This document shows positions 8,814 to 18,564 of a stretch of DNA of 19,313 nucleotides, one piece after another. How positions within the stretch are numbered: the first letter of the stretch is position 1; each line of letters opens with the position of its first letter. Location: assembly GCA_016932295.1 (NCBI GenBank), contig JAFGDC010000385.1:1-19313 (forward strand). The letters run 5' to 3'. The stretch comes from a candidate division CSSED10-310 bacterium (GTDB lineage: Bacteria; CSSED10-310; JAFGDC01). The notes beneath the pieces were generated by a model. It worked only from the letters and a program-made list of their open reading frames with translations, was not told where the DNA came from and made no database searches. The position numbers and the translations under genes are program-made.

Positions 8814-8842
8814 AAAAAAAGGGCGGCGGTGCCGCCCTTTTT
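8814..8842 (-). terminator. Intrinsic terminator of the subtilase gene
   Basis: On the minus strand an A run leads into GGGCGGC, a 3-nt loop, GCCGCCC and then seven T residues. The A/T tracts extend the stem, and the element begins 14 nt after the stop of the subtilase. It is a textbook rho-independent terminator and, being A/T-flanked on both sides, could also work in the other direction. Confidence 0.9.
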
Positions 8843-8856
8843 CATGAGTCTGATCC

Positions 8857-9192
8857 TCAGTCGTGATAATCGAATGGACAGTAACCATACTCGCCGATGA
8901 GGTGGTAGGTACCGGGTTCCAGCATTGCCACCCAGATCGCGATATCATCCGCCGCACCGCCGCCGGGCGGCCAGATGAAATCGAGTATGGTGGCGGTCAG
9001 GCAGTCACAGGCCGGAATACTCCAGACGGCGAAATCCATATCAATGCTCCACGAGGGCCAGAACCAGTAGCTTCCGAACACATCCAGGATGACGTACACC
9101 TCCGCAGTGAAGCTGTTATTGCCGCCATTGCACATTGAAACGGTCATCGTGAACTGATCGCCGGGCACGAACACACTCTGACTGATTTCGCA
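8857..9192 (-). other. C-terminal tail domain of the subtilase, also present in the redoxin
   Basis: Residues 1505-1615 of the protease form a compact beta-rich domain after the Thr/Pro linker. The core motif is VILDVFGSYWFWPSWS, followed by FIWPPGGG. The redoxin at 17611-18564 has VLDVYGLYFFYPAWS and FSWPPVDG in the same order and spacing. In this copy several cysteines (C1505, C1525, C1566, C1568, C1609) suggest disulfides; the redoxin copy has none. Confidence 0.8.
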
Positions 9193-12100
9193 GAAGGCGC
9201 CGGTGGTTGGACAAGACGGTGTGGCGGTAACAATCGGCGTCCGGGTACAAGGCACACTCGTGAACGTGGGAGGAATGATCGGAGTGGGAGTGACGGTCGC
9301 CGGTGCACTTGAGTCCGCCCAAACCTCGATGTCGTCGAGATTCCAGCCGCAATACGCGTCATTCCCGTTAGCACTCCCCATGACCCACCGCAGGTAGACG
9401 GTTGGCTGCCCGTCGGCGACAGCGGAGATATCGTAGACCCGGGATGTCCATGATTGATCGTCGATCGTAGCGCCCGTATGCGTCCAGAGATCGGTCCAGG
9501 TGGTGCCGTTCGTGGAGATCCGGACCGCAGCATGATCATACTGGGCGGATTCGACACCCAGCCACCGCATGAACCGCAGTTCGGTGTCAATGAAGGAGGA
9601 GCAGTCGAGCACAGTGGTGGTAAGCTGTTCCTCGCTCATGCCGTTGGCGTATTCACCATTCAGGTTATAACCATACACCGCGGGGCCGTTGTAACCAGCG
9701 GACGGATCGCCGCCCTGGCCGGCTGGCACACCCCACTCCCATTCACCAGTTCCCGTCCATCCGGGATCGCTATCCATGTTCCAGAAATATCGACGGGAGA
9801 AACTGGACGTGGTCACTTCAACCTGGAACGGCACGGCCGTCGCGTAGCCCCCGGTCTCGCTCACCGCCAGCAGGAAGTTCACCACTGTTCCGTTTGGTGT
9901 GAATGGAGAAGCGTTGACAGTGAAATGCGGCGCCTGGCTGAACCCCTGCTCACCAGGACCGATGGAACCGAAATCCGCGCTGTTGTCGGAAATGCTGATA
10001 TACGCCGAGTGATCAGATGACAGCACCGCCGTGATCCCATCCGCTGCGTCGCTACCCGTATTGCCAATGGTGACCGGAATAATGACCGTTTCACCGGGAT
10101 CGAAATTGCCGTCCATGTCGCCGTTGTCCATCAACTGGTGCGATACATACTCAATCGAAGGCGCCAGGATGAAATCCGTGAAACCGGTATCACCCTGGCC
10201 CTGGTCGCATTGCCAGTGAAGCGTGAAATCAACCGCCGATTGATTGGGGACCTCGGTTGATACGGCGACTGTGAAATGGGGAGCGATAGAGTTCCCGGTC
10301 TGATTCTGAGGAATGTCCTGGAAAACCGCCTCGCCGTCGAGAACCGTGATGTACGGGCTGGAACTGCTGAGCATACCGGTGATATTCGTGGCATCCATTC
10401 CAAGGTTCTCCAGGGTGACCTGCAACCCGACCGTCTCCCCGGCATCCATGTCGCCATCTGCGTCACCGATGCTGTCATCCACGGCATGGCTCTCGTACAT
10501 GAGGTCGGGAGTGTTGCAGGGAGCCTCATACGAGATCTTGACGTCGTCGATGTTCCAGCCGCAGTAGATCACGCTGGAGTCAGTGGTGCCCATGGTCCAG
10601 CGCAGGTATACGGCAGGCTGCCCGTCGGCATAGGTGGACAGATCGTACTCCTGGCATACCCAGGCGCCGTCGGAAATGGATTCCGTCCCGTTGGCGAACA
10701 GATTGGTCCAGGTGGAGCCGTTGGTGGAAATACTCAGGTAGGCATGATCCCAGGAGCTGTTCTCGACGCCCAGCCAGCGGTAGTAGGTGAGCGTGGTGCC
10801 GGTAGCGCCGGAGCAGTCGAAAGACGGCGTGGTGAGATGGTACGCCGGCATGTTGTTGCTATAATCGCCGGACAGGTTGTAGCCGTAAACAGACGTACCG
10901 GTGTAACCGGAGGTGGGATCGGGATCGCCGTAGTAACCACCGCCGCCAATGGGCTGTCCCCATGCCCAGGAACCACCGGAGATGGTCCAGCCGGGGTTGG
11001 TATCCATGCTCTCCTCAAAAAGGATGAATACGGCCAGAGTGGTGAACCCGTAGTATACGCCGCCATTGTCGTCGGTGACCTCGTTGCCGGCAGCATCCGT
11101 GCTGGTGACACTGAAGCGATAAAGCACGCAATCATCCAGATCGGTGAGGGTGATGCGGTGAGCGGTAGTAAACGTCTCATCGGTCGCGGTGTGCGCCGGC
11201 GGCACGGCATCCCCGTACGTCACGGTGGAATCGGCCGCCTCATCGGTGGTCCAACTGATGGTGACACTCGATGAGGTCACCCCGCTGACAAGAACGCCGC
11301 TGATCTGGGGGGCCAGGCAATCGATTTCAGCCACATCGGTTTTCGGTACATTGACCCCGCCATGGCCGTCGTCCGCATCGATATAGGTCACGGTCACCGA
11401 GTCACCGTCAACCACCTGTATCTCGCCGGCTCCGGGTATACCGGTGGTGAAGGTCACCATGCCTTCGAAAATGCCGGAACTGGGGCCGCTTTCCGTCAGT
11501 GTTACCGTTTCACCAGTCGGATCAGTCGTGCTCACCACCGTGACATCCTGCATTCCCTGACCACCCAGGTCCGCATCGGACACGACGATCGCCGCGGTCC
11601 CATCGCACGCATACCTGCCGCTGTCGAAGCTCACCACACCGTCGGAAAAGCTGAGGGGGCCGGAGATAACAAGCGCGTACGGCTGCGGTCCCTGCGGTAT
11701 GTTGAACGCATTGATGGTGATGGTATAGGCGCCTACCGGTGGATTGTCTAGCTGGACGCACTCGATGTTGTTGAGCCGATCCGCCGAACCGCCCGGTACC
11801 GAGCCGCCGCCGCTGTAGTGGTTGCCAAGATATGTCTGTTGACCGCTCACAGTGAGATCCAGATCATTCACCAGGTTGATGCTTGCGGCGGGCGTGGATG
11901 GATAATCGGACCAAACCAGGGTGATCTCCAGGGGTTCGTCCGACGCGTTCACCGCCACCACATACTGGACCTGCTGGCCAGTGCTCAGACCGTCACTATT
12001 GTCATCCACGAACAACAAGCGCTGATCATTGAAGAAAAAGAGCGTCGTATCCAGGGTCACACGGCCCCAGCCCTGCCCCATGGAAGGGATATCCGCATGC

Positions 12101-13704
12101 CCGGCACCCGAATCGGCGGTGTACGTGCCTGTCATGTTGACGCCGCTGTTGACGAGCACCGCCTTGACCAAGGCCGAACTGGGCTCGAATGCAAAACCGG
12201 GATCAGCCGTTCCCAGCGGGTAAAAACCTTGCATGAAGTAATCACGCACCAACGCCGCGGAGCCGGCCACACCTGGCGTTGCCATACTGGTGCCGCTGCC
12301 GGAAAGGGTACTGCAATTGAAGGAACCGGTGTTACTGTCGTTGGAGGCGGAATAGATATCGCCGCCGGGCAGGGTGATATCCGGCTTGATACGACCGTCA
12401 TCGGTGGGTCCATGGCTCGAGAAATACATATTGTTTTCGGGCTGACTGGCACCGCTCTCGGTAGCGCCGACAGTCACCACGTTCTTGGCGGTGCCGGGCG
12501 CTCTGATTGTGTCGCTGCCGGCGCCGTCATTACCCGCTGCATACACGATACTATAGTCAGGGTTGTCCCAGATGAATTGATCAACCTCCTGGGAATCATC
12601 ATGATACACACCATGGACACTGGGCCATCCCCAACTGTTGGAATGTACCCTGCCGCCGATGTCATACACTTCCTGATGCGCATCATACTCACCGTCGGGC
12701 GGGTACACGTCCCAACCGTCACCGTAGTCCTGCACAATCAGTTTTGCCATATAGGCAATGCCGTCCCCGGTGTTCTCTCCGCCTGGCGTTGCGAAATCAT
12801 TACCGGCGATGGTGCCGGCGGTATGGGTGCCATGCCCCTGTGTGTCATAGCTGTTGGCATAGGAGGAGGGACCGACATACGCGACGATTTTGCGTTGATT
12901 GTAGTTGGGCGGCTGATTGACCTGGATCAAACCCTGGCCGGCATCATAGAAGTAGCACATGTCGGCATCCACACCGGTATCCATCACGCCGACAAGCTGA
13001 CCTTCCCCACGTACGCCGTTGTCATACAACGGTTTGAGACCACCCCCGTAGGGACCTGACTGACAAATGTACCGAGTATAATCGTTGCACAATTTATAAA
13101 CGGGTCGGCGCTGCACCCACTCCACCTCGGGCAGCATGGCCAGACTCCTGGAGACCTCCGCCACCTTCAAGCCCTTGATCTCGAAAGAGATGCGACGGCG
13201 ATGAGGATTGTCAGCATGGTCGATGATTGTCCCTCCCGCCGCGCGAATGATGGCGCGGGCGGTCTCGACCGATTCGCCGCCGAACAGGGTGACGCGGATC
13301 GGCACAAGCGCGGCGGCATCCATCCTCAGAAGTTCCAGATCAATCTTGCAGTAGGGTTGGTACAGAGCCACCATGTCCACTCCGTAAAGGGAACGCGCCT
13401 TGTTAAGCTGCATGGTATCCAGCCGCGCCAGGTAGGCATCGTGTGGCAGGTAGCCGACAATCGCCACCCCCAGTCGCTCGAGTGATTCCTTCGCGACGGG
13501 TGTGATACGGCCGGAAAAATGCACGATGTAATAGCCCGACTCCTCCTCGGTCAGCAACCAGTCGGAGGGTATGTCATCCCAACCGCCGGCCCGCAGCGTG
13601 GCGTTGTTCAGGACAACCGTGCACCGATCCATTCCGGTTGCGCCGGCGCCACACAGCATCGACAGACAGACGGTGATTGCAGAAATTATCAGGAATTGTT
13701 TCAC
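8857..13704 (-). CDS. Secreted multidomain subtilase (S8, KP-43-like) with a C-terminal linker and shared tail domain
   Basis: A 1615-residue exported serine protease. Residues 1-23 are a signal peptide (short basic start, hydrophobic core, GAGA-TG cleavage region); 24-200 look like a propeptide. The catalytic triad is D242 (VMDTG), H291 (GHGTH) and S473 (GTSMATP), with oxyanion N392 (AAGND). A jelly-roll like that of KP-43 proteases follows (about 555-680). Next come a beta module (685-797), an FnIII-like module (798-888), a lectin/MAM-like module (893-1058), two CARDB-like modules with GDxDGxxDxGE loops (1065-1180, 1181-1297), and a second copy of the MAM-like module (1305-1462). A Thr/Pro linker (1467-1503) leads to a tail domain (1505-1615). 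GTG 13704 is chosen as start because GGGAGGA sits five bases upstream and the signal peptide then begins at residue 1; an ATG 16 codons upstream has no such site. It is probably monocistronic, with its own terminator. Confidence 0.93.
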   Translation of the reverse strand: MKQFLIISAITVCLSMLCGAGATGMDRCTVVLNNATLRAGGWDDIPSDWLLTEEESGYYIVHFSGRITPVAKESLERLGVAIVGYLPHDAYLARLDTMQLNKARSLYGVDMVALYQPYCKIDLELLRMDAAALVPIRVTLFGGESVETARAIIRAAGGTIIDHADNPHRRRISFEIKGLKVAEVSRSLAMLPEVEWVQRRPVYKLCNDYTRYICQSGPYGGGLKPLYDNGVRGEGQLVGVMDTGVDADMCYFYDAGQGLIQVNQPPNYNQRKIVAYVGPSSYANSYDTQGHGTHTAGTIAGNDFATPGGENTGDGIAYMAKLIVQDYGDGWDVYPPDGEYDAHQEVYDIGGRVHSNSWGWPSVHGVYHDDSQEVDQFIWDNPDYSIVYAAGNDGAGSDTIRAPGTAKNVVTVGATESGASQPENNMYFSSHGPTDDGRIKPDITLPGGDIYSASNDSNTGSFNCSTLSGSGTSMATPGVAGSAALVRDYFMQGFYPLGTADPGFAFEPSSALVKAVLVNSGVNMTGTYTADSGAGHADIPSMGQGWGRVTLDTTLFFFNDQRLLFVDDNSDGLSTGQQVQYVVAVNASDEPLEITLVWSDYPSTPAASINLVNDLDLTVSGQQTYLGNHYSGGGSVPGGSADRLNNIECVQLDNPPVGAYTITINAFNIPQGPQPYALVISGPLSFSDGVVSFDSGRYACDGTAAIVVSDADLGGQGMQDVTVVSTTDPTGETVTLTESGPSSGIFEGMVTFTTGIPGAGEIQVVDGDSVTVTYIDADDGHGGVNVPKTDVAEIDCLAPQISGVLVSGVTSSSVTISWTTDEAADSTVTYGDAVPPAHTATDETFTTAHRITLTDLDDCVLYRFSVTSTDAAGNEVTDDNGGVYYGFTTLAVFILFEESMDTNPGWTISGGSWAWGQPIGGGGYYGDPDPTSGYTGTSVYGYNLSGDYSNNMPAYHLTTPSFDCSGATGTTLTYYRWLGVENSSWDHAYLSISTNGSTWTNLFANGTESISDGAWVCQEYDLSTYADGQPAVYLRWTMGTTDSSVIYCGWNIDDVKISYEAPCNTPDLMYESHAVDDSIGDADGDMDAGETVGLQVTLENLGMDATNITGMLSSSSPYITVLDGEAVFQDIPQNQTGNSIAPHFTVAVSTEVPNQSAVDFTLHWQCDQGQGDTGFTDFILAPSIEYVSHQLMDNGDMDGNFDPGETVIIPVTIGNTGSDAADGITAVLSSDHSAYISISDNSADFGSIGPGEQGFSQAPHFTVNASPFTPNGTVVNFLLAVSETGGYATAVPFQVEVTTSSFSRRYFWNMDSDPGWTGTGEWEWGVPAGQGGDPSAGYNGPAVYGYNLNGEYANGMSEEQLTTTVLDCSSFIDTELRFMRWLGVESAQYDHAAVRISTNGTTWTDLWTHTGATIDDQSWTSRVYDISAVADGQPTVYLRWVMGSANGNDAYCGWNLDDIEVWADSSAPATVTPTPIIPPTFTSVPCTRTPIVTATPSCPTTGAFCEISQSVFVPGDQFTMTVSMCNGGNNSFTAEVYVILDVFGSYWFWPSWSIDMDFAVWSIPACDCLTATILDFIWPPGGGAADDIAIWVAMLEPGTYHLIGEYGYCPFDYHD
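9319..9798 (-). repeat. Second copy of the lectin/MAM-like module in the subtilase
   Basis: Residues about 1303-1462. It matches the first copy through GW-T, VYGYNL-G-Y-N-M, LTT, DCS, RWLGVE, DHA, ISTNG-TWT, DGQP-VYLRW-MG and YCGWN-DD. The similarity is close enough to indicate internal duplication rather than two independent acquisitions. Confidence 0.75.
10531..11028 (-). repeat. First copy of the lectin/MAM-like module in the subtilase
   Basis: Residues about 893-1058, ending in YCGWNIDDVKI. Such jelly-roll modules in secreted proteins usually bind carbohydrate or proteins. The pair brackets two CARDB-like domains. Confidence 0.75.
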
Positions 13705-13794
13705 CTTATCCTCCCATGAAAACCACTGATAGCGGCCTGGCACGACACACACAAACCTTGCGTATCATCACCACTCTACTTTATTCCGTAGGTA

Positions 13795-13824
13795 TTCGTA
13801 TCAAGTCCGTCGCGCGGAAGTCAA
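13795..13824 (-). promoter_or_regulatory. Tentative promoter of the subtilase gene
   Basis: A minus-strand -35 TTGACT (13824-13819) lies 18 bases from a poor -10 TACGAA (13800-13795). Only the -35 is convincing. It is the best candidate found in the 253-nt divergent gap 13705-13957. Confidence 0.25.
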
Positions 13825-13858
13825 CTATCACGCAAGAGTCCGTCACATCGGTTCGATA

Positions 13859-13895
13859 TCCGATTACTCCACCAGAAACCCCGTCGGTAATCGGA
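13859..13895. repeat. 9-bp inverted repeat in the divergent intergenic region
   Basis: Perfect arms TCCGATTAC (13859-13867) and GTAATCGGA (13887-13895) are separated by 19 nt. It lies between the protease and the small membrane-protein gene and could be a regulator site for either, or a boundary element. No T tract follows on either strand. Confidence 0.4.
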
Positions 13896-13921
13896 ACGTA
13901 TCCAGAAACACACCAGCCTGC

Positions 13922-13937
13922 TATGGTATAAACCATA
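13922..13937 (+). promoter_or_regulatory. Extended -10 promoter inside a short inverted repeat, for the small membrane protein
   Basis: TGG followed by TATAAA (13924-13932) is an extended -10 element; no good -35 is present, as is common for this class. The start would be near 13939, leaving a short leader before the GGAGG at 13948-13952. The element lies within TATGGT-ATAA-ACCATA (13922-13937), a perfect 6-bp inverted repeat that a repressor could recognise. Confidence 0.45.
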
Positions 13938-13957
13938 CAACTATCGTGGAGGTCTGC

Positions 13958-14248
13958 ATGGAAATCGCCATGGTCATCATCGTCGTGATCGCGGTTACCG
14001 CTGTCCTGACTTTCGTCCAGATGAAAAGGCGACAATCCGAATGGATCGGTACCGTGGAAAAAAAAACTCACAAATCCTTCGAGGAGAACGACGGCACCCT
14101 GCGCGAGGAGTATCTGGTCGTCTTCAGCACCGACGCCGGCAAGAAAATCAAACTGCGCCTGAATGAATCATGGTTCGAGAAATACGAGGAAGGATTCCGC
14201 TACCACAAGCGATCGGGGGAGGACTTCCCCATCCCGATCGATGAGTGA
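13958..14248 (+). CDS. Small single-pass membrane protein of unknown function
   Basis: A 96-residue protein with one N-terminal hydrophobic helix (about 2-20), then a basic stop-transfer MKRRQ and a charged soluble domain of about 70 residues. That domain has alternating beta-like segments (WIGTVEKKT, EEYLVVFSTDAG, KKIKLRLNESW) and ends EDFPIPIDE. Its layout resembles small bacterial membrane-anchored domains of the DUF2500 type, but I would not assign it to that family without a profile search. ATG 13958 is chosen over GTG 13946 because GGAGG lies five bases before it. It is divergent from the secreted subtilase and convergent with zur, so it is likely monocistronic. Confidence 0.8.
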   Translation: MEIAMVIIVVIAVTAVLTFVQMKRRQSEWIGTVEKKTHKSFEENDGTLREEYLVVFSTDAGKKIKLRLNESWFEKYEEGFRYHKRSGEDFPIPIDE

Positions 14249-14327
14249 AGGCGATTGCGGCAGGTCTTGCGTAGTGTTCCATTGTGGCAAATCCGGCCGA
14301 CAACGGGCGCTTTCTCCACGCGGCGAG

Positions 14328-14765
14328 TCACTCTCTCCCGGACCCGTTGACGCTACATGCGCGACACACGCCGTCCAGCCGCAATTCCACGCGGTGTACC
14401 GATCCGGGCACCTCGCCGGCGAGCTGTTCGAGAACCGCCGCCACCACCGCGGTGGAAATGCATGTCATCGTACCGCATCGAACACAATAGAAATGCGGAT
14501 GGGCATGGTGTACACGGGCCGTGCTGAGACCGTATCGGAAAGAGCGATCGCCGGAACTGATCCTGTCCACCAGGTCATGGGTCACCAGCAGTTCCAGGAT
14601 GCGATACACGGTCACCCGATCGATGCCGCCTGTTCTGCCAACGGCGAGCCGCACTTCGGCGGCGGTCAGCGGGTGAGCGCTTTCATCCAAGACCCGCAGC
14701 ACAGCCAGGCGGTGAGGAGTCGCCGTCACGTCATGAGCGGCAAGCAGACCGTGGTGGCGGCTCAC
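14328..14765 (-). CDS. zur: Zur: Fur-family zinc uptake regulator
   Basis: A 145-residue Fur-superfamily repressor. The winged-helix part covers residues 1-80, with TPHRLAVLRVL (16-26) and recognition-helix region DRVTVYRILELL (49-60). The dimerisation part has the metal motif HHAHPHFYCVRCG (86-98) and a structural zinc site C94/C97 with C134/C137. It would repress zinc-uptake genes when zinc is replete. Its position as last gene behind znuA-znuC-znuB argues for Zur rather than Fur or PerR, though this is inference from context. The frame is open far upstream, but GTG 14765 overlaps the znuB stop by four bases (GTGA) with GGAG seven bases upstream, and gives the normal family length. Probably autoregulated through the palindrome before znuA. 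Confidence 0.9.
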   Translation of the reverse strand: MSRHHGLLAAHDVTATPHRLAVLRVLDESAHPLTAAEVRLAVGRTGGIDRVTVYRILELLVTHDLVDRISSGDRSFRYGLSTARVHHAHPHFYCVRCGTMTCISTAVVAAVLEQLAGEVPGSVHRVELRLDGVCRACSVNGSGRE

Positions 14766-15598
14766 GCCGGCGCTCCGGTGCGACGCCCCTGGAAATGACC
14801 GTGCACCCGCTCTCCGATGAGGAAGATGAAGAATCCGGCGCCAGCGGTCAAGATAATGGCAGCTCCGGAGGTCAGATTGAACGTATATGCCAGGGTCAGG
14901 CCGGCAAGGGTGAAGACGAGGTTGAACAGCGTCGACCAGGCCATCATGGCGGCCAGCGAAGCGGAAAATTTCTCCGCCATGAAGGGGGATATGGTAAGCA
15001 GCGCGATGACCAGGATGAGCCCAACCGTCTGGATGACCATCACCACCGAAAGAGCAATCAATACCATAAGCAGAAGGTACAGCGCGCGTACCGGCACACC
15101 CCTGATACGGGCGAACTCCGCGTCGTATGAAATCGCCACGAATTCTTTGTAAAACAGTGCCATTGACGCAATTATCATCAGATCCACGCCGAGCATGAGC
15201 AGGAGATCGGTTCTCGGGACCGTCAGGATGCTCCCGAAGAGATAACTCATCAAATCCACATTGTATCCCGGGGTCAGATCCAGGAGAACGATCCCCAGCG
15301 CCATGCCCACCGCCCAAATGACGCCGATGATAGTATCGGCCCGCTCCCTGGCACGCAGACTGACGACGGCCATCACGAGCGCCGCGGCCAGAGAGAAGAA
15401 CGCGATGCCCAGGAGCGGCGCCAACCCGAGAAAAAAGGCCAGGCCCACACCACCATATGCGGCATGGGCGATTCCTCCGGAGATGAAGACGATCCGGTTG
15501 ACGACCACCAACGTGCCGAGGATGCCACATGCCACCGCCGCCAATATACCTGCGGCCACCGCGTTGCGCATGAATTCGAAAGTCAATGCCTCGATCAT
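14762..15598 (-). CDS. znuB: ZnuB-type permease of a zinc/manganese ABC importer
   Basis: A 278-residue inner-membrane protein of the ABC-3 family, with about eight or nine hydrophobic segments spread from residue 12 to 265. Family segments include NRIVFISGGIAHAAYGGVG near the N-terminus and EFARIRGVPVRALYLLLM before a hydrophobic block containing QTVGLILV. It forms the membrane channel with the ZnuC ATPase. The frame continues 22 codons upstream, but ATG 15598 overlaps the znuC stop (ATGA) and has GAGG seven bases ahead, so it is preferred. The C-terminus ends in a basic cytoplasmic tail. Confidence 0.93.
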   Translation of the reverse strand: MIEALTFEFMRNAVAAGILAAVACGILGTLVVVNRIVFISGGIAHAAYGGVGLAFFLGLAPLLGIAFFSLAAALVMAVVSLRARERADTIIGVIWAVGMALGIVLLDLTPGYNVDLMSYLFGSILTVPRTDLLLMLGVDLMIIASMALFYKEFVAISYDAEFARIRGVPVRALYLLLMVLIALSVVMVIQTVGLILVIALLTISPFMAEKFSASLAAMMAWSTLFNLVFTLAGLTLAYTFNLTSGAAIILTAGAGFFIFLIGERVHGHFQGRRTGAPA

Positions 15599-16362
15599 GA
15601 CTTGTCCTCGTGGCTCGGCAGGACCCTGTGGGGCAGACCATGTGCGATAAGTTCCACGGGGCAATGATACGCCGCTTCCAGCATATCCTTGGTGATCTCG
15701 GGGGCGTTGTGAAAGTGAACCCTGCGGTTCACACAGGCCACCGATTTAATATAGGTGGACAGCACCATCAAATCATGACTCACCACGATGATCGTCACCT
15801 CTTTATTGAGTTCGTTCAGGAAACTGTAGAACTCCGATCGTCCCCGGCTGTCGATCCGGGCGGTCGGCTCATCCAACAGCAGCAAATCGGGTTCTGACAC
15901 CAACGCCCTGGCCAGAAAGACCCGCTGGCGCTGACCCCCGGAGAGCGTGCCGATACGGCGATCCTTGAAACCATCCATGGACACCCGCGTCAAGGCGCGC
16001 TCCACCGCCTCATGATCCGCCCGTGTGAACCGCCGTCGACCGGCCCCGCGCAATCGCCCCATGCACACCACCTGGCGCACGGAGATGGGGAATCCCAGAT
16101 TACGATCGAACTCCTGTGGAACATAACCAACTCTGATGGATGCCTGACGGGGTGTGCGGCCGAACACCCGAATGAAGCCGCCGGCCGGCTCCAGCAACCC
16201 CAGGATGAGCTTCAACATGGTGGTCTTGCCGCCGCCGTTCGGACCAATCACCGCCAAAAATTCACCCCGATCGACCGTCAGATTCACTTCCTCGAGAATA
16301 AAATTACCATCGTAGCCGAAGGAAACATCCCGGAGTTCCACAATGGCAGTGCGTTCACTCAT
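15595..16362 (-). CDS. znuC: ZnuC-type ATP-binding protein of the zinc importer
   Basis: A 255-residue ABC ATPase with Walker A GPNGGGKT (40-47), Q-loop in VPQEF (81-85), signature LSGGQ (140-144), Walker B LLLLDEP (160-166) and H-loop H196 in VVSHD. The tail HCPVELIAHGLPHRVL is typical of zinc/manganese-type ATPases of this family. It energises uptake through ZnuB. ATG 16362 overlaps the end of znuA by eight bases, and the gene's TGA overlaps the ATG of znuB, so all three are coupled. Confidence 0.95.
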   Translation of the reverse strand: MSERTAIVELRDVSFGYDGNFILEEVNLTVDRGEFLAVIGPNGGGKTTMLKLILGLLEPAGGFIRVFGRTPRQASIRVGYVPQEFDRNLGFPISVRQVVCMGRLRGAGRRRFTRADHEAVERALTRVSMDGFKDRRIGTLSGGQRQRVFLARALVSEPDLLLLDEPTARIDSRGRSEFYSFLNELNKEVTIIVVSHDLMVLSTYIKSVACVNRRVHFHNAPEITKDMLEAAYHCPVELIAHGLPHRVLPSHEDKS

Positions 16363-17263
16363 GGCTCAACACTTCCCGGAATGCCGCCGCCTGACGCCTG
16401 AGATTGTCCGCCCAGGCCTCGGCGAGAGGATCCGCGGACGACACCCGGCCACCAATCTCACGAGCGATCACTTGGGCACTCCTGGAGGAGAATTGCGGCT
16501 GCACGAAGATCACCCTGATGCCGCGCTGCCGGGCCATCTGGATGAGTGCCGCCAGATGCGCCGGTTTTGGTTCCTTACCTTCCAACTCCACTGGGATCTG
16601 CTTCAATCCATAGGTGTCTGCGAAGTACCCCCAGGAAGGATGAAAGACCATGAACGATCTTGGTTCGGGCAGACCGTCGAACACCGCGCGCAATTCCATG
16701 TCGAGATCGTCCAACTGGAGATTGAAAGCCGCCAGATTGGCCTGGTACAAACCGGCATGAGGGGGATCCAGTTCCGCCAGCGCCGAACAGATGACGGCGG
16801 CCTGCAGTTTCACCAGTGAAGGCGAGAGCCAGATATGAGGGTCCATGCCGCTCTCGTGAGCGTGCTCATGATGGTCATGTCCATGCTCCTGCGCGCCGTC
16901 TCCCGCGCCCTGCAGAATACTGTGGAACGTCTCGATTTCACGCTTGGCAATGCCATGATCAGTCGGCACGATGCGCAAGTTCGCATTGGCGGCGCTCAGC
17001 TTGGGTAACCAGACATGCTCGAAGGGAACACCGATTGAAAAATAGATTTCCGCGGATGCAAGGGCCGCCATCTGCCGTGGAGCAGGCTCATAAGTGGCGG
17101 GACTGGCTCCCGGGGTCACCATTACGGAAACGGTGACCTGCGAGCCGCCGATCTTCTCCACGAAATATTTCTGTGGAAGGATGCTCACAAACACATCGAC
17201 GGCACCCGTTGAGGCCGCCGCCAACCACAACCCAATCGCCGCCATCGCGATTTTCCGTTTCAT
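16355..17263 (-). CDS. znuA: ZnuA-type periplasmic zinc-binding protein
   Basis: A 302-residue cluster-A1/TroA-type binding protein with a signal peptide (1-21, hydrophobic core then ASTGA). A His-rich loop HGHDHHEHAH (128-137) is typical of zinc-specific members. Likely metal ligands are H143 (DPHIW), H208 (FHPSWGYF) and D278 (SSADPL). The position that is often a first His ligand (GAxPHxYEP in many homologues) reads GASPATYEP here, with Ala56, so coordination may be completed by another residue such as the nearby Glu59. The frame is open 25 codons upstream, but ATG 17263 has GAGGAA six bases ahead and starts the signal peptide correctly. First gene of the operon, behind a putative Zur-controlled promoter with a leader near 80 nt. 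Confidence 0.93.
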   Translation of the reverse strand: MKRKIAMAAIGLWLAAASTGAVDVFVSILPQKYFVEKIGGSQVTVSVMVTPGASPATYEPAPRQMAALASAEIYFSIGVPFEHVWLPKLSAANANLRIVPTDHGIAKREIETFHSILQGAGDGAQEHGHDHHEHAHESGMDPHIWLSPSLVKLQAAVICSALAELDPPHAGLYQANLAAFNLQLDDLDMELRAVFDGLPEPRSFMVFHPSWGYFADTYGLKQIPVELEGKEPKPAHLAALIQMARQRGIRVIFVQPQFSSRSAQVIAREIGGRVSSADPLAEAWADNLRRQAAAFREVLSHE

Positions 17264-17350
17264 TGACTGTTCCTCATTGTCACTCACAACCCCTCTATAC
17301 CATTCACCCACCATCGATCGGCGCCTGTCTGTTTCCATTCCTCATTCAAG

Positions 17351-17380
17351 AGTCTAGCACGACATGCAACTGAGTTGCAA
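17351..17380 (-). promoter_or_regulatory. Predicted promoter of the znuACB-zur operon
   Basis: Minus-strand -35 TTGCAA (17380-17375) is 18 bases from -10 TAGACT (17356-17351), which is preceded by TGC, making an extended -10. Transcription would begin near 17344. The -35 and the start of the spacer are inside the 7-1-7 palindrome. Confidence 0.5.
17365..17379. promoter_or_regulatory. Putative Zur operator, perfect 7-1-7 palindrome
   Basis: TGCAACT-G-AGTTGCA is a perfect inverted repeat with the 7-1-7 geometry known for Fur, Zur and PerR sites. It covers the -35 region of znuA, the position expected for repression, and a Fur-family gene is encoded in the same operon. Zur as the ligand is inferred from context. 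Confidence 0.7.
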
Positions 17381-17433
17381 ACAGAGGCTGCCGATTGTGG
17401 CAAGGCGGGACATTGATGGCCGGAAGTATCTGC

Positions 17434-17506
17434 CCGTCACTGCAATCATGGGATTGATCAGCCGGTCGCAAGTCGTTCCGAAACCAGCCGCTGCAGGCAG
17501 TGACGG
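17434..17506. repeat. 10-bp inverted repeat between znuA and the redoxin gene
   Basis: Perfect arms CCGTCACTGC (17434-17443) and GCAGTGACGG (17497-17506) enclose 53 nt that contain no gene. It lies between the Zur palindrome and the redoxin promoter within the 347-nt divergent gap 17264-17610. Function is unknown; a looped operator or a remnant element is possible. Confidence 0.4.
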
Positions 17507-17544
17507 CGCGATGTCTCGACCGGGACAGCCTGATTCGGGGAAAC

Positions 17545-17573
17545 TTGACAGGGAAAAGGTGAATAACTACTGT
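17545..17573 (+). promoter_or_regulatory. Candidate promoter of the redoxin gene
   Basis: A perfect -35 TTGACA (17545-17550) is 17 bases from a weak -10 TACTGT (17568-17573). The start would be near 17580, about 31 nt before ATG 17611. Confidence 0.5.
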
Positions 17574-17610
17574 GACAATGGGATTACAGGATGCTATCCA
17601 GGAGGAAGGT

Positions 17611-18564
17611 ATGAGATGGTTTTCAAGGCTGTTCGTCACGCTGGGGGTGGTGGCGCTTGCGGCGACCCCGGTGGTCCGCGCCAATCTCGGAGTAGGTGAC
17701 CCGGCGGCGGATTTCAATCTATTGTCGCAGTTCAACACCTATTATCACCTGTTCGATTACCAAGGCGACATCATCGTCCTGGATTTTTCCATCATGATGT
17801 GCCAGGACTGCCGCGTCGAGGCGGTGGATCTCCAGCAGAATTACTGGGAACCGTACCAGGACCAGGGTGTCATGGTATTCTGCCTGTTAGGCGAGGACAG
17901 CGGCGGCAGTATTCCGGATCTGGCGGATCTCAATGAATGGGCCAACGATCTGGGACTGACCTATCCCATTCTGTCGGAACCAGGCCCCTCGCGGACAACG
18001 TACGGGGTCTCCAGTTATCCCACCAATTTCATCATCGACCGCAGCATGACCATCCGTTACCGGAACAACGGATATGACCACACCCGCATGATGCAGGCGT
18101 TTCTGGATCTGCTGGACGAGGACACTCCCACTCCGATCACCACTCCAGTCCCCACGGATACGCCTTTCATTCCTTGCACACCAACGCCTTCTCCCACACC
18201 CGATCCCATGTTCGAGGAAATATCCCTGGAATTCACCATCAGCGACACCTATTTCCAGGAAAACGATACCTTCCTTTTAAGCGCCACGATGAACAGCGCC
18301 AATGTGCCTACCATCGTCGATTTTTACGCGGTGCTGGACGTGTACGGCCTCTATTTTTTCTATCCCGCGTGGAGTGAGACCCTGACAGCGGAACGCCTGA
18401 CAGTTCCGGCGGGCATGACCGGAAAGGATATCCTCGGTCCCTTCAGTTGGCCACCTGTAGATGGAATGCTCACCAACCTGGGGTTCTATGGCATTCTGAC
18501 CGGTCCGGACGATTTTACAATCCTGAGCACGCTGGCATTTGTGGAATTCGGCTACGGACCCTGA
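17611..18564 (+). CDS. Exported thioredoxin-fold (redoxin/TlpA-like) protein with Thr/Pro linker and shared tail domain
   Basis: A 317-residue secreted protein. Residues 1-24 form a signal peptide (MRWFSRL, hydrophobic core, VVRA). Residues 25-168 are a thioredoxin-like domain: GDPAADFNL opening as in AhpC/TSA-redoxin proteins, a CxxC at C64/C67 (MCQDC, without the usual Trp before the first Cys), and a cis-proline region SSYPTNF with P137. Residues 171-199 are a Thr/Pro linker. Residues 203-317 are a beta-type domain homologous to the C-terminus of the subtilase. It would act outside the cytoplasm as a thiol-disulfide oxidoreductase, with partner unknown. ATG 17611 is chosen over an ATG 13 codons upstream because AGGAGG lies five bases before it. 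Divergent from the znu operon, behind its own promoter. Confidence 0.88.
   Translation: MRWFSRLFVTLGVVALAATPVVRANLGVGDPAADFNLLSQFNTYYHLFDYQGDIIVLDFSIMMCQDCRVEAVDLQQNYWEPYQDQGVMVFCLLGEDSGGSIPDLADLNEWANDLGLTYPILSEPGPSRTTYGVSSYPTNFIIDRSMTIRYRNNGYDHTRMMQAFLDLLDEDTPTPITTPVPTDTPFIPCTPTPSPTPDPMFEEISLEFTISDTYFQENDTFLLSATMNSANVPTIVDFYAVLDVYGLYFFYPAWSETLTAERLTVPAGMTGKDILGPFSWPPVDGMLTNLGFYGILTGPDDFTILSTLAFVEFGYGP
18217..18561 (+). other. C-terminal tail domain of the redoxin, homologous to the subtilase tail
   Basis: Residues 203-317. It shares with the protease tail an early F-x-x-x-D-x-F turn, the strand VLDVYGLYFFYPAW, the FSWPP motif and a final aromatic strand ending FGYGP (EYGYCP in the protease). 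Both copies end the protein and both follow a Thr/Pro-rich linker. Confidence 0.8.

Follow-up and report, generated by a model that had tools for sequence, protein, structure and literature searches.

A mobile, mostly C-terminal domain on unrelated, apparently exported proteins of candidate division CSSED10-310 bacteria: a putative localisation tail

Two genes in a 19,313-nucleotide contig of a candidate division CSSED10-310 bacterium (GenBank JAFGDC010000385.1, assembly GCA_016932295.1; this whole stretch is called the window below) raise a simple question: what is the domain with which both a giant secreted protease and a secreted redoxin, two proteins with unrelated catalytic parts, come to an end? 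An earlier note, made from the sequence alone, had proposed a mobile tail acquired by several exported proteins, perhaps as a sorting, anchoring or surface-display signal specific to this lineage. We find a large domain family, with 57 to 105 copies in each of five metagenome-assembled genomes (MAGs) of the phylum and no convincing Pfam or NCBIfam match. Its copy number, position, accompanying signal peptides, diverse cargo and shuffled tails strongly support a mobile module on functionally unrelated, apparently exported proteins. The best interpretation of such a single-copy, mostly C-terminal and shuffled domain is a localisation tail, for which sorting or anchoring is plausible but unproven.

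The domain shared by the two window proteins

The two proteins and their parts lie in the window as follows.

8857..13752, minus strand: giant S8 (subtilase) protease with signal peptide and tail, 1631 residues from the first GTG (PF00082, E 8e-42, residues 249-543; signal peptide by eye)
8857..9207, minus strand: protease tail plus stop codon (profile match to residues 1516-1631, reaching the last residue)
9208..9310, minus strand: Thr/Pro-rich linker upstream of the protease tail (approximate bounds, by eye)
17572..18564, plus strand: AhpC/TSA-like redoxin with signal peptide, CxxC motif (MMCQDC) and tail (PF00578, E 3.4e-15; signal peptide and CxxC by eye)
18110..18210, plus strand: Thr/Pro-rich linker of the redoxin (approximate bounds, by eye)
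18211..18561, plus strand: redoxin tail domain (profile match), modelled as an immunoglobulin-like (Ig-like) beta-sandwich with eight strands (AlphaFold pLDDT 96.5, pTM 0.86)

The coordinates first noted for both tails hold up on re-reading: 8857-9192 for the last 111 residues of the protease plus the stop codon (the database version, P0006, has 1615 residues), and 18217-18561 for the tail of the redoxin, which has 330 residues from its GTG or 317 from the ATG at MRWFSRL (P0003). In a single pairwise comparison, BLASTP aligned 107 residues of the two tails with 26% identity (E 3e-14), and a 94-row profile, whose rows include both tails, matched them with best-domain E-values of 2.1e-36 and 5.4e-31. 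The shared C-terminal domain was thus borne out, as were the unrelated catalytic parts, which belong to the subtilase (PF00082) and AhpC-TSA (PF00578) families. By eye, each protein has an apparent signal peptide at its N-terminus and, as had been noted, a Thr/Pro linker before its tail. No third copy was found when the six-frame translation of the window was searched with the 94-row profile, the next match (E 1.6) being noise.

The domain measures roughly 115 residues and carries the signature LDVYGxYWFxPxW / FxWP. Tails are highly diverged (median pairwise identity 28%, of 157), and six positions are conserved at 90% or more among 94 divergent rows; in the closing strand, positions 113 and 115 are aromatic in 97% and 96% of these rows. 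The AlphaFold model confidently predicts an Ig-like beta-sandwich that is all-beta to its end. Among the matches listed by Foldseek, the nearest solved structures include a porphyran-binding module (8wae), CARDB, RbmA and a Wzt glycan-binding domain (8dky), and a sequence search of solved structures gave no match. None of the 94 copies has a convincing match in Pfam (13 families, each hit by one copy, the best being macroglobulin MG4 at E 0.0029; CARDB is hit by one copy at E 0.2) or in NCBIfam (five families at E <= 1).

Copy number and distribution

Database searches started from the tails recovered the same ending on an exonuclease-family protein (P0004) and on a 2831-residue repeat protein (P0007). 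A further protein, P0005, matched at E 8.4, was accepted by eye and was then used in two profiles (A1 and A2); its later E-value of 2e-31 comes from a profile built from copies found through these two. Scanning 84,980 species genomes with a single short pattern, which reaches close variants only, yielded 36 stretches, of which 15 failed confirmation and 21 were confirmed, all in CSSED10-310 MAGs. Whole-genome profile searches then counted 105, 90, 57, 77 and 87 copies in five MAGs (416 in total) and none in three other CSSED10-310 genomes. Relative to the gene numbers given in PMC8248873, this amounts to 4.2% in JAFGLW (105 of 2515) and 2.7% in JAFGEQ (57 of 2073). The same source puts the four Zodletone MAGs at 68-86% completeness; the fifth is a soda-lake MAG (PWNJ, here G004) with 77 copies. 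Many unrelated signal-peptide proteins beyond the two in the window thus carry the tail, and it marks a sizeable share of the apparent exported proteins of an uncultured phylum.

Scoring the 15 best candidates of each genome among 290 relatives (eight within the phylum) gave credible matches in two further genomes, both outside the phylum; a match in another genome (G258; E 1.9e-4, 35 positions, four in-frame stops) was treated as spurious. The copies in these two genomes, 32 and 44 in number, belong to a divergent form. Comparing its profile with that of the tail gave a match at 99.4% (E 2.8e-21), the members of the form having been picked by the tail profile itself. We read 17 of 30 divergent loci (15 by script and two more by motif search, leaving 13 unread): 15 copies are C-terminal, one (L193) lies right behind a signal peptide and one (L205) has 595 residues after the motif. 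Since a divergent homologous form occurs outside the phylum, the tail family extends beyond CSSED10-310. The proposed lineage specificity has to be corrected accordingly; the strong form and its amplification were seen in CSSED10-310 only. A plasmid search with one tail protein gave no match.

Position in proteins and export signals

To place the domain within proteins, we fetched the DNA around all 162 copies of two MAGs (G001 and G003) and counted 150 copies in complete open reading frames (ORFs), short or cut ones being dropped and one two-copy ORF being counted twice. The domain ends within 5 residues of the stop in 134 cases, at 6-30 residues in 12 and farther away in four, so that 146 of the 150 copies lie within 30 residues of the C-terminus. 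Likewise, a search with one MAG tail gave 80 database proteins (the query protein and others of the same MAGs included), each with a single copy, and 78 of them end at the domain or at most four residues past it; both exceptions carry an FGE-sulfatase domain. The earlier claim of an extreme C-terminal position consequently stands for most copies and fails for some. Besides the four distant copies, the 48 domain matches around 45 of the 77 G004 copies (the better-scoring ones) comprise 36 C-terminal, ten N-terminal (nine then followed by FGE motifs), one internal and one cut, which makes 11 of 48 N-terminal or internal in this third MAG. In seven of the 21 first loci, the domain also directly follows a signal peptide, five times before FGE, once before CpeT and once before a stretch without Pfam match; for the remaining two tail-bearing MAGs (G002 and G005), positions are known for the copies among these 21 loci only. 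On a tree of 177 tail rows, the 13 N-terminal or internal rows need seven changes, at least three of them forced by starred branches (FastTree, 116 columns; 91 of 174 inner branches are open, and most forks are open or weak).

That the tail is carried by apparently exported proteins is supported by an enrichment of signal peptides, which were judged, like lipoboxes and transmembrane segments, by our own heuristics. The strict heuristic finds one in 122 of 147 tail ORFs versus 88 of 418 neighbouring ORFs, and the loose one in 132 of 147 versus 144 of 418.

Some non-terminal arrangements recur. In the soda-lake MAG, the FGE-linked module often stands right behind the signal peptide and is followed by at least one FGE-sulfatase domain. 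Modules before FGE occur in L006, L011, L014, L016 and L020, and in the G004 stretches L223-L227, L231, L237 and L239. By eye, one G003 protein (L103:4199-7645, contig C12) has two modules, in the order FGE-like, module, FGE-like, FGE-like, module, and in two MAGs (L077:2621-5998 and L238) the module is followed by a linker and then by a different C-terminal stretch, similar between the two.

Cargo and shuffling of tails

The 55 tail ORFs of G003 match 46 Pfam families. Among the matches listed (25 of the 46), S8 proteases (four), beta-helix proteins (four) and C1 proteases (three) lead, and FGE, astacin, PLD, C25, M6, GSDH, cohesin, Kelch, PQQ and DJ-1 occur once each among the G003 tail ORFs. 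Tail proteins from the database add GH18, agmatine/peptidylarginine deiminase, transglutaminase, M1, phosphatases and a second redoxin, and FG-GAP proteins are also found among the cargo.

Similar tails sit behind dissimilar proteins. BLASTP comparison within G001 and G003 gave 21 tail pairs at least 70% identical, all within G001 and involving 12 proteins, and 18 of them have no upstream similarity at E 1e-3 (one protein truncated at a contig end takes part in four of these). The highest tail identity with unrelated upstream parts, 81%, links the C25 protease P0012 to a protein that by eye resembles a subtilase, and at 60% tail identity or more, 100 of 109 pairs lack upstream similarity. Ten tail pairs, nine with unrelated upstream parts, were also compared as DNA: the similarity spans the tail, enters the linker in nine pairs, and stops at most seven bases from the stop codon in nine and 34 bases short of it in one. 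Extra, repeat-like matches occur in the linkers of several pairs. This pattern fits a spread of the tail by recombination through repetitive linker DNA, and the tails offer a natural series of domain shuffles. Clustering at E 1e-5 sorts the upstream parts of 148 proteins into 63 groups, of which the largest has 47 members, so that some tail architectures have been inherited as paralogues too.

In G001 and G003, 11 pairs of adjacent tail genes lie within 500 bp of each other (three convergent, five tandem and three divergent).

Comparison with known tail systems

The tail resembles the type A C-terminal domains (CTDs) of the type IX secretion system (T9SS), being a predicted Ig-like sandwich of about 100-115 residues at the C-terminus of many unrelated signal-peptide proteins with low mutual identity; PMC4804311 and PMC12618676 describe type A CTDs, too, as Ig-like sandwiches some 100 residues long that share little sequence identity with one another. 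It differs in its eight predicted strands, its own signature and its N-terminal copies. Neither T9SS tail model (TIGR04183, the type A one, or TIGR04131, both assumed to be part of NCBIfam) is among the five NCBIfam families matched by the 94 copies, which agrees with the earlier suggestion of a logic like that of T9SS without its sequence. SprA, the T9SS translocon, was detected in none of the eight phylum genomes (five of them tail-bearing, the MAGs being incomplete) versus 76 of the 290 genomes searched; a search for it with TIGR04189 gave no match even in the controls and was therefore disregarded. Membership in T9SS was rejected on these two grounds. No T9SS CTD structure is among the 50 Foldseek matches listed, which excludes nothing.

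Other systems fared no better. Sortase (PF04203) was found in none of the five tail-bearing genomes, while two of the three tail-less phylum genomes and three of 14 controls were positive, and a sortase system was rejected. One short exosortase-like match (PF09721) occurs in each of the five tail-bearing genomes and also in all three tail-less ones, so that exosortase was discarded as a partner. In the eight phylum genomes, these exosortase-like proteins are mostly short, covering the last ~60% of PF09721, and are fuller in G007 and G008. Of the co-occurring protease or translocon family for which the earlier note had proposed to look, neither SprA nor sortase was detected in the tail-bearing genomes, and exosortase-like genes do not track the tail. 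MAG incompleteness weakens single absences, and five absences together less so.

Tags of the PEP-CTERM/exosortase, GlyGly-CTERM/rhombosortase, MYXO-CTERM and LPXTG/sortase kinds combine a short motif with a transmembrane helix and a basic terminus. The present tail shares their logic, in that one C-terminal tag serves dozens of unrelated exported proteins (PMC11980579, PMC3237569), but it is predicted to be a folded domain ending in a beta-strand. As it is modelled all-beta to its end and no PEP-CTERM model is among the NCBIfam matches of the 94 copies, a PEP-CTERM-type tag was rejected. Lipoprotein anchoring was also rejected, with lipobox-like motifs in six of 128 tail ORFs with signal peptides versus 15 of 130 others. 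SLH domains and dockerins likewise sit at protein ends and localise many exported enzymes; the Pfam matches of the 94 copies include neither of them, and the present tail is predicted to be all-beta. From CARDB and other extracellular Ig-like domains, including 8wae and 8dky, it differs in an identity of only about 11% and in its mostly terminal, single-copy placement. Thus, none of the tested known tail systems accounts for the CSSED10-310 tail.

What the tail may do

We favour, at a probability of roughly 0.45, the reading that linker and tail form a mobile localisation module that anchors exported proteins to the envelope or to a matrix. Cargo would cross the inner membrane by Sec, as the signal peptides suggest; the Ig-like tail would then fix it, without covalent processing, to one shared receptor on the cell envelope or in the extracellular matrix, with a glycan as the likeliest candidate; and genomes may enlarge the system by copying linker and tail behind new exported proteins. 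An anchor seems to us more likely than an export signal because of the N-terminal copies and of the glycan binders among the nearest folds, and copies right behind the signal peptide are easier to reconcile with a binding module than with a signal confined to the C-terminus. Several observations weigh against anchoring. The likeness to glycan binders is unspecific, with a TM of about 0.55 and an identity of about 11%, and domains of complement C3 reach equal scores. Being so nearly always C-terminal and single-copy is commoner for secretion signals than for binding modules, and the near-strict C-terminal rule favours an export signal. The Thr/Pro linker is not general: of 150 C-terminal copies, 70 have at least 50% Thr plus Pro over the 37 residues that precede the domain, and 58 have less than 30%. 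Finally, no convincing partner or receptor gene was found among the 418 neighbouring ORFs (loci chosen around tails): the largest neighbour clusters have five members (four adjoining a tail gene) and four (all adjoining, two per MAG; radical-SAM-like by eye), too few to indicate a partner. With five genomes that bear the tail and three that lack it, the phylum provides a setting for a partner-gene search.

The arrangement that counts against an anchor is what an outer-membrane export signal would predict, namely a tail read by an undescribed translocon in the manner of a T9SS CTD, perhaps followed by cleavage or surface attachment, with the N-terminal copies derived and repurposed. The 146 of 150 copies near the stop, the conserved aromatic closing strand (positions 113 and 115) and the comparable size, fold and divergence of type A CTDs all speak for it, as does a cargo that includes C25 proteases and a deiminase, which are kinds of T9SS cargo in Porphyromonas. 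We nevertheless consider this reading rather improbable: SprA was not detected in the eight phylum genomes, no T9SS tail profile is among the matches of the 94 copies, and the 13 N-terminal or internal rows would require seven label changes on the tail tree, at least three of them forced. The bolder proposal that CSSED10-310 bacteria export and display proteins at the outer membrane by a system of their own, separate from both T9SS and sortases, in which the Ig-like tail tags cargo for a dedicated putative translocon or receptor and is copied with the linker as a unit, strikes us as doubtful.

The domain could also be an ordinary extracellular Ig-like module for substrate binding or adhesion, akin to carbohydrate-binding modules or CARDB and amplified without a role in localisation. 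A carbohydrate-binding module and CARDB are indeed among the nearest Foldseek structures, the domain can be N-terminal, and a divergent homologous form exists outside the phylum. However, polysaccharide enzymes do not dominate the cargo, which covers redoxins, deiminases, phosphatases, proteases and propellers, a breadth for which one external substrate is hard to envisage, and the position is mostly terminal and single-copy; we judge such a substrate binder unlikely. Least probable, to our mind, is a neutral or structural cap without common ligand, spread by recombination, for instance between repetitive Thr/Pro linker DNA. The joint DNA similarity of linker and tail, the repeat-like linker matches and the wide divergence of the tails would suit it, but six positions kept at 90% or more among divergent rows and the high copy number in each of five MAGs argue for selection. 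Compared with these alternatives, an anchoring module remains our preferred explanation, and the tail in any event opens a way into the surface and secreted proteins of CSSED10-310.

Other features of the window

Besides the tail, the protease and the repeat protein P0007 share by eye an aromatic domain with the motif WGxPxGxGG...VYGYNLxGxY, present twice in the protease. Just 3' of the protease stop, positions 8814-8840 hold a G+C-rich inverted repeat with a T run behind it, by eye similar to an intrinsic terminator. Between the two tail genes, at 14328-17338, lie a gene for a Fur-family regulator and ABC-3 / ZnuA-type zinc uptake genes. Protein comparisons place the window probably, though not firmly, in this phylum or close to it. 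The best full-length matches of the GspE-like protein of the window are in G002 (49%), G005 (47%), G105 (46%; not among the eight phylum genomes compared) and G004 (43%), those in G001 and G003 being weaker. Its TldD is closest to proteins of G187 (47%), G007 (46%) and G042 (45%), and reaches 40-42% in the five tail-bearing MAGs.

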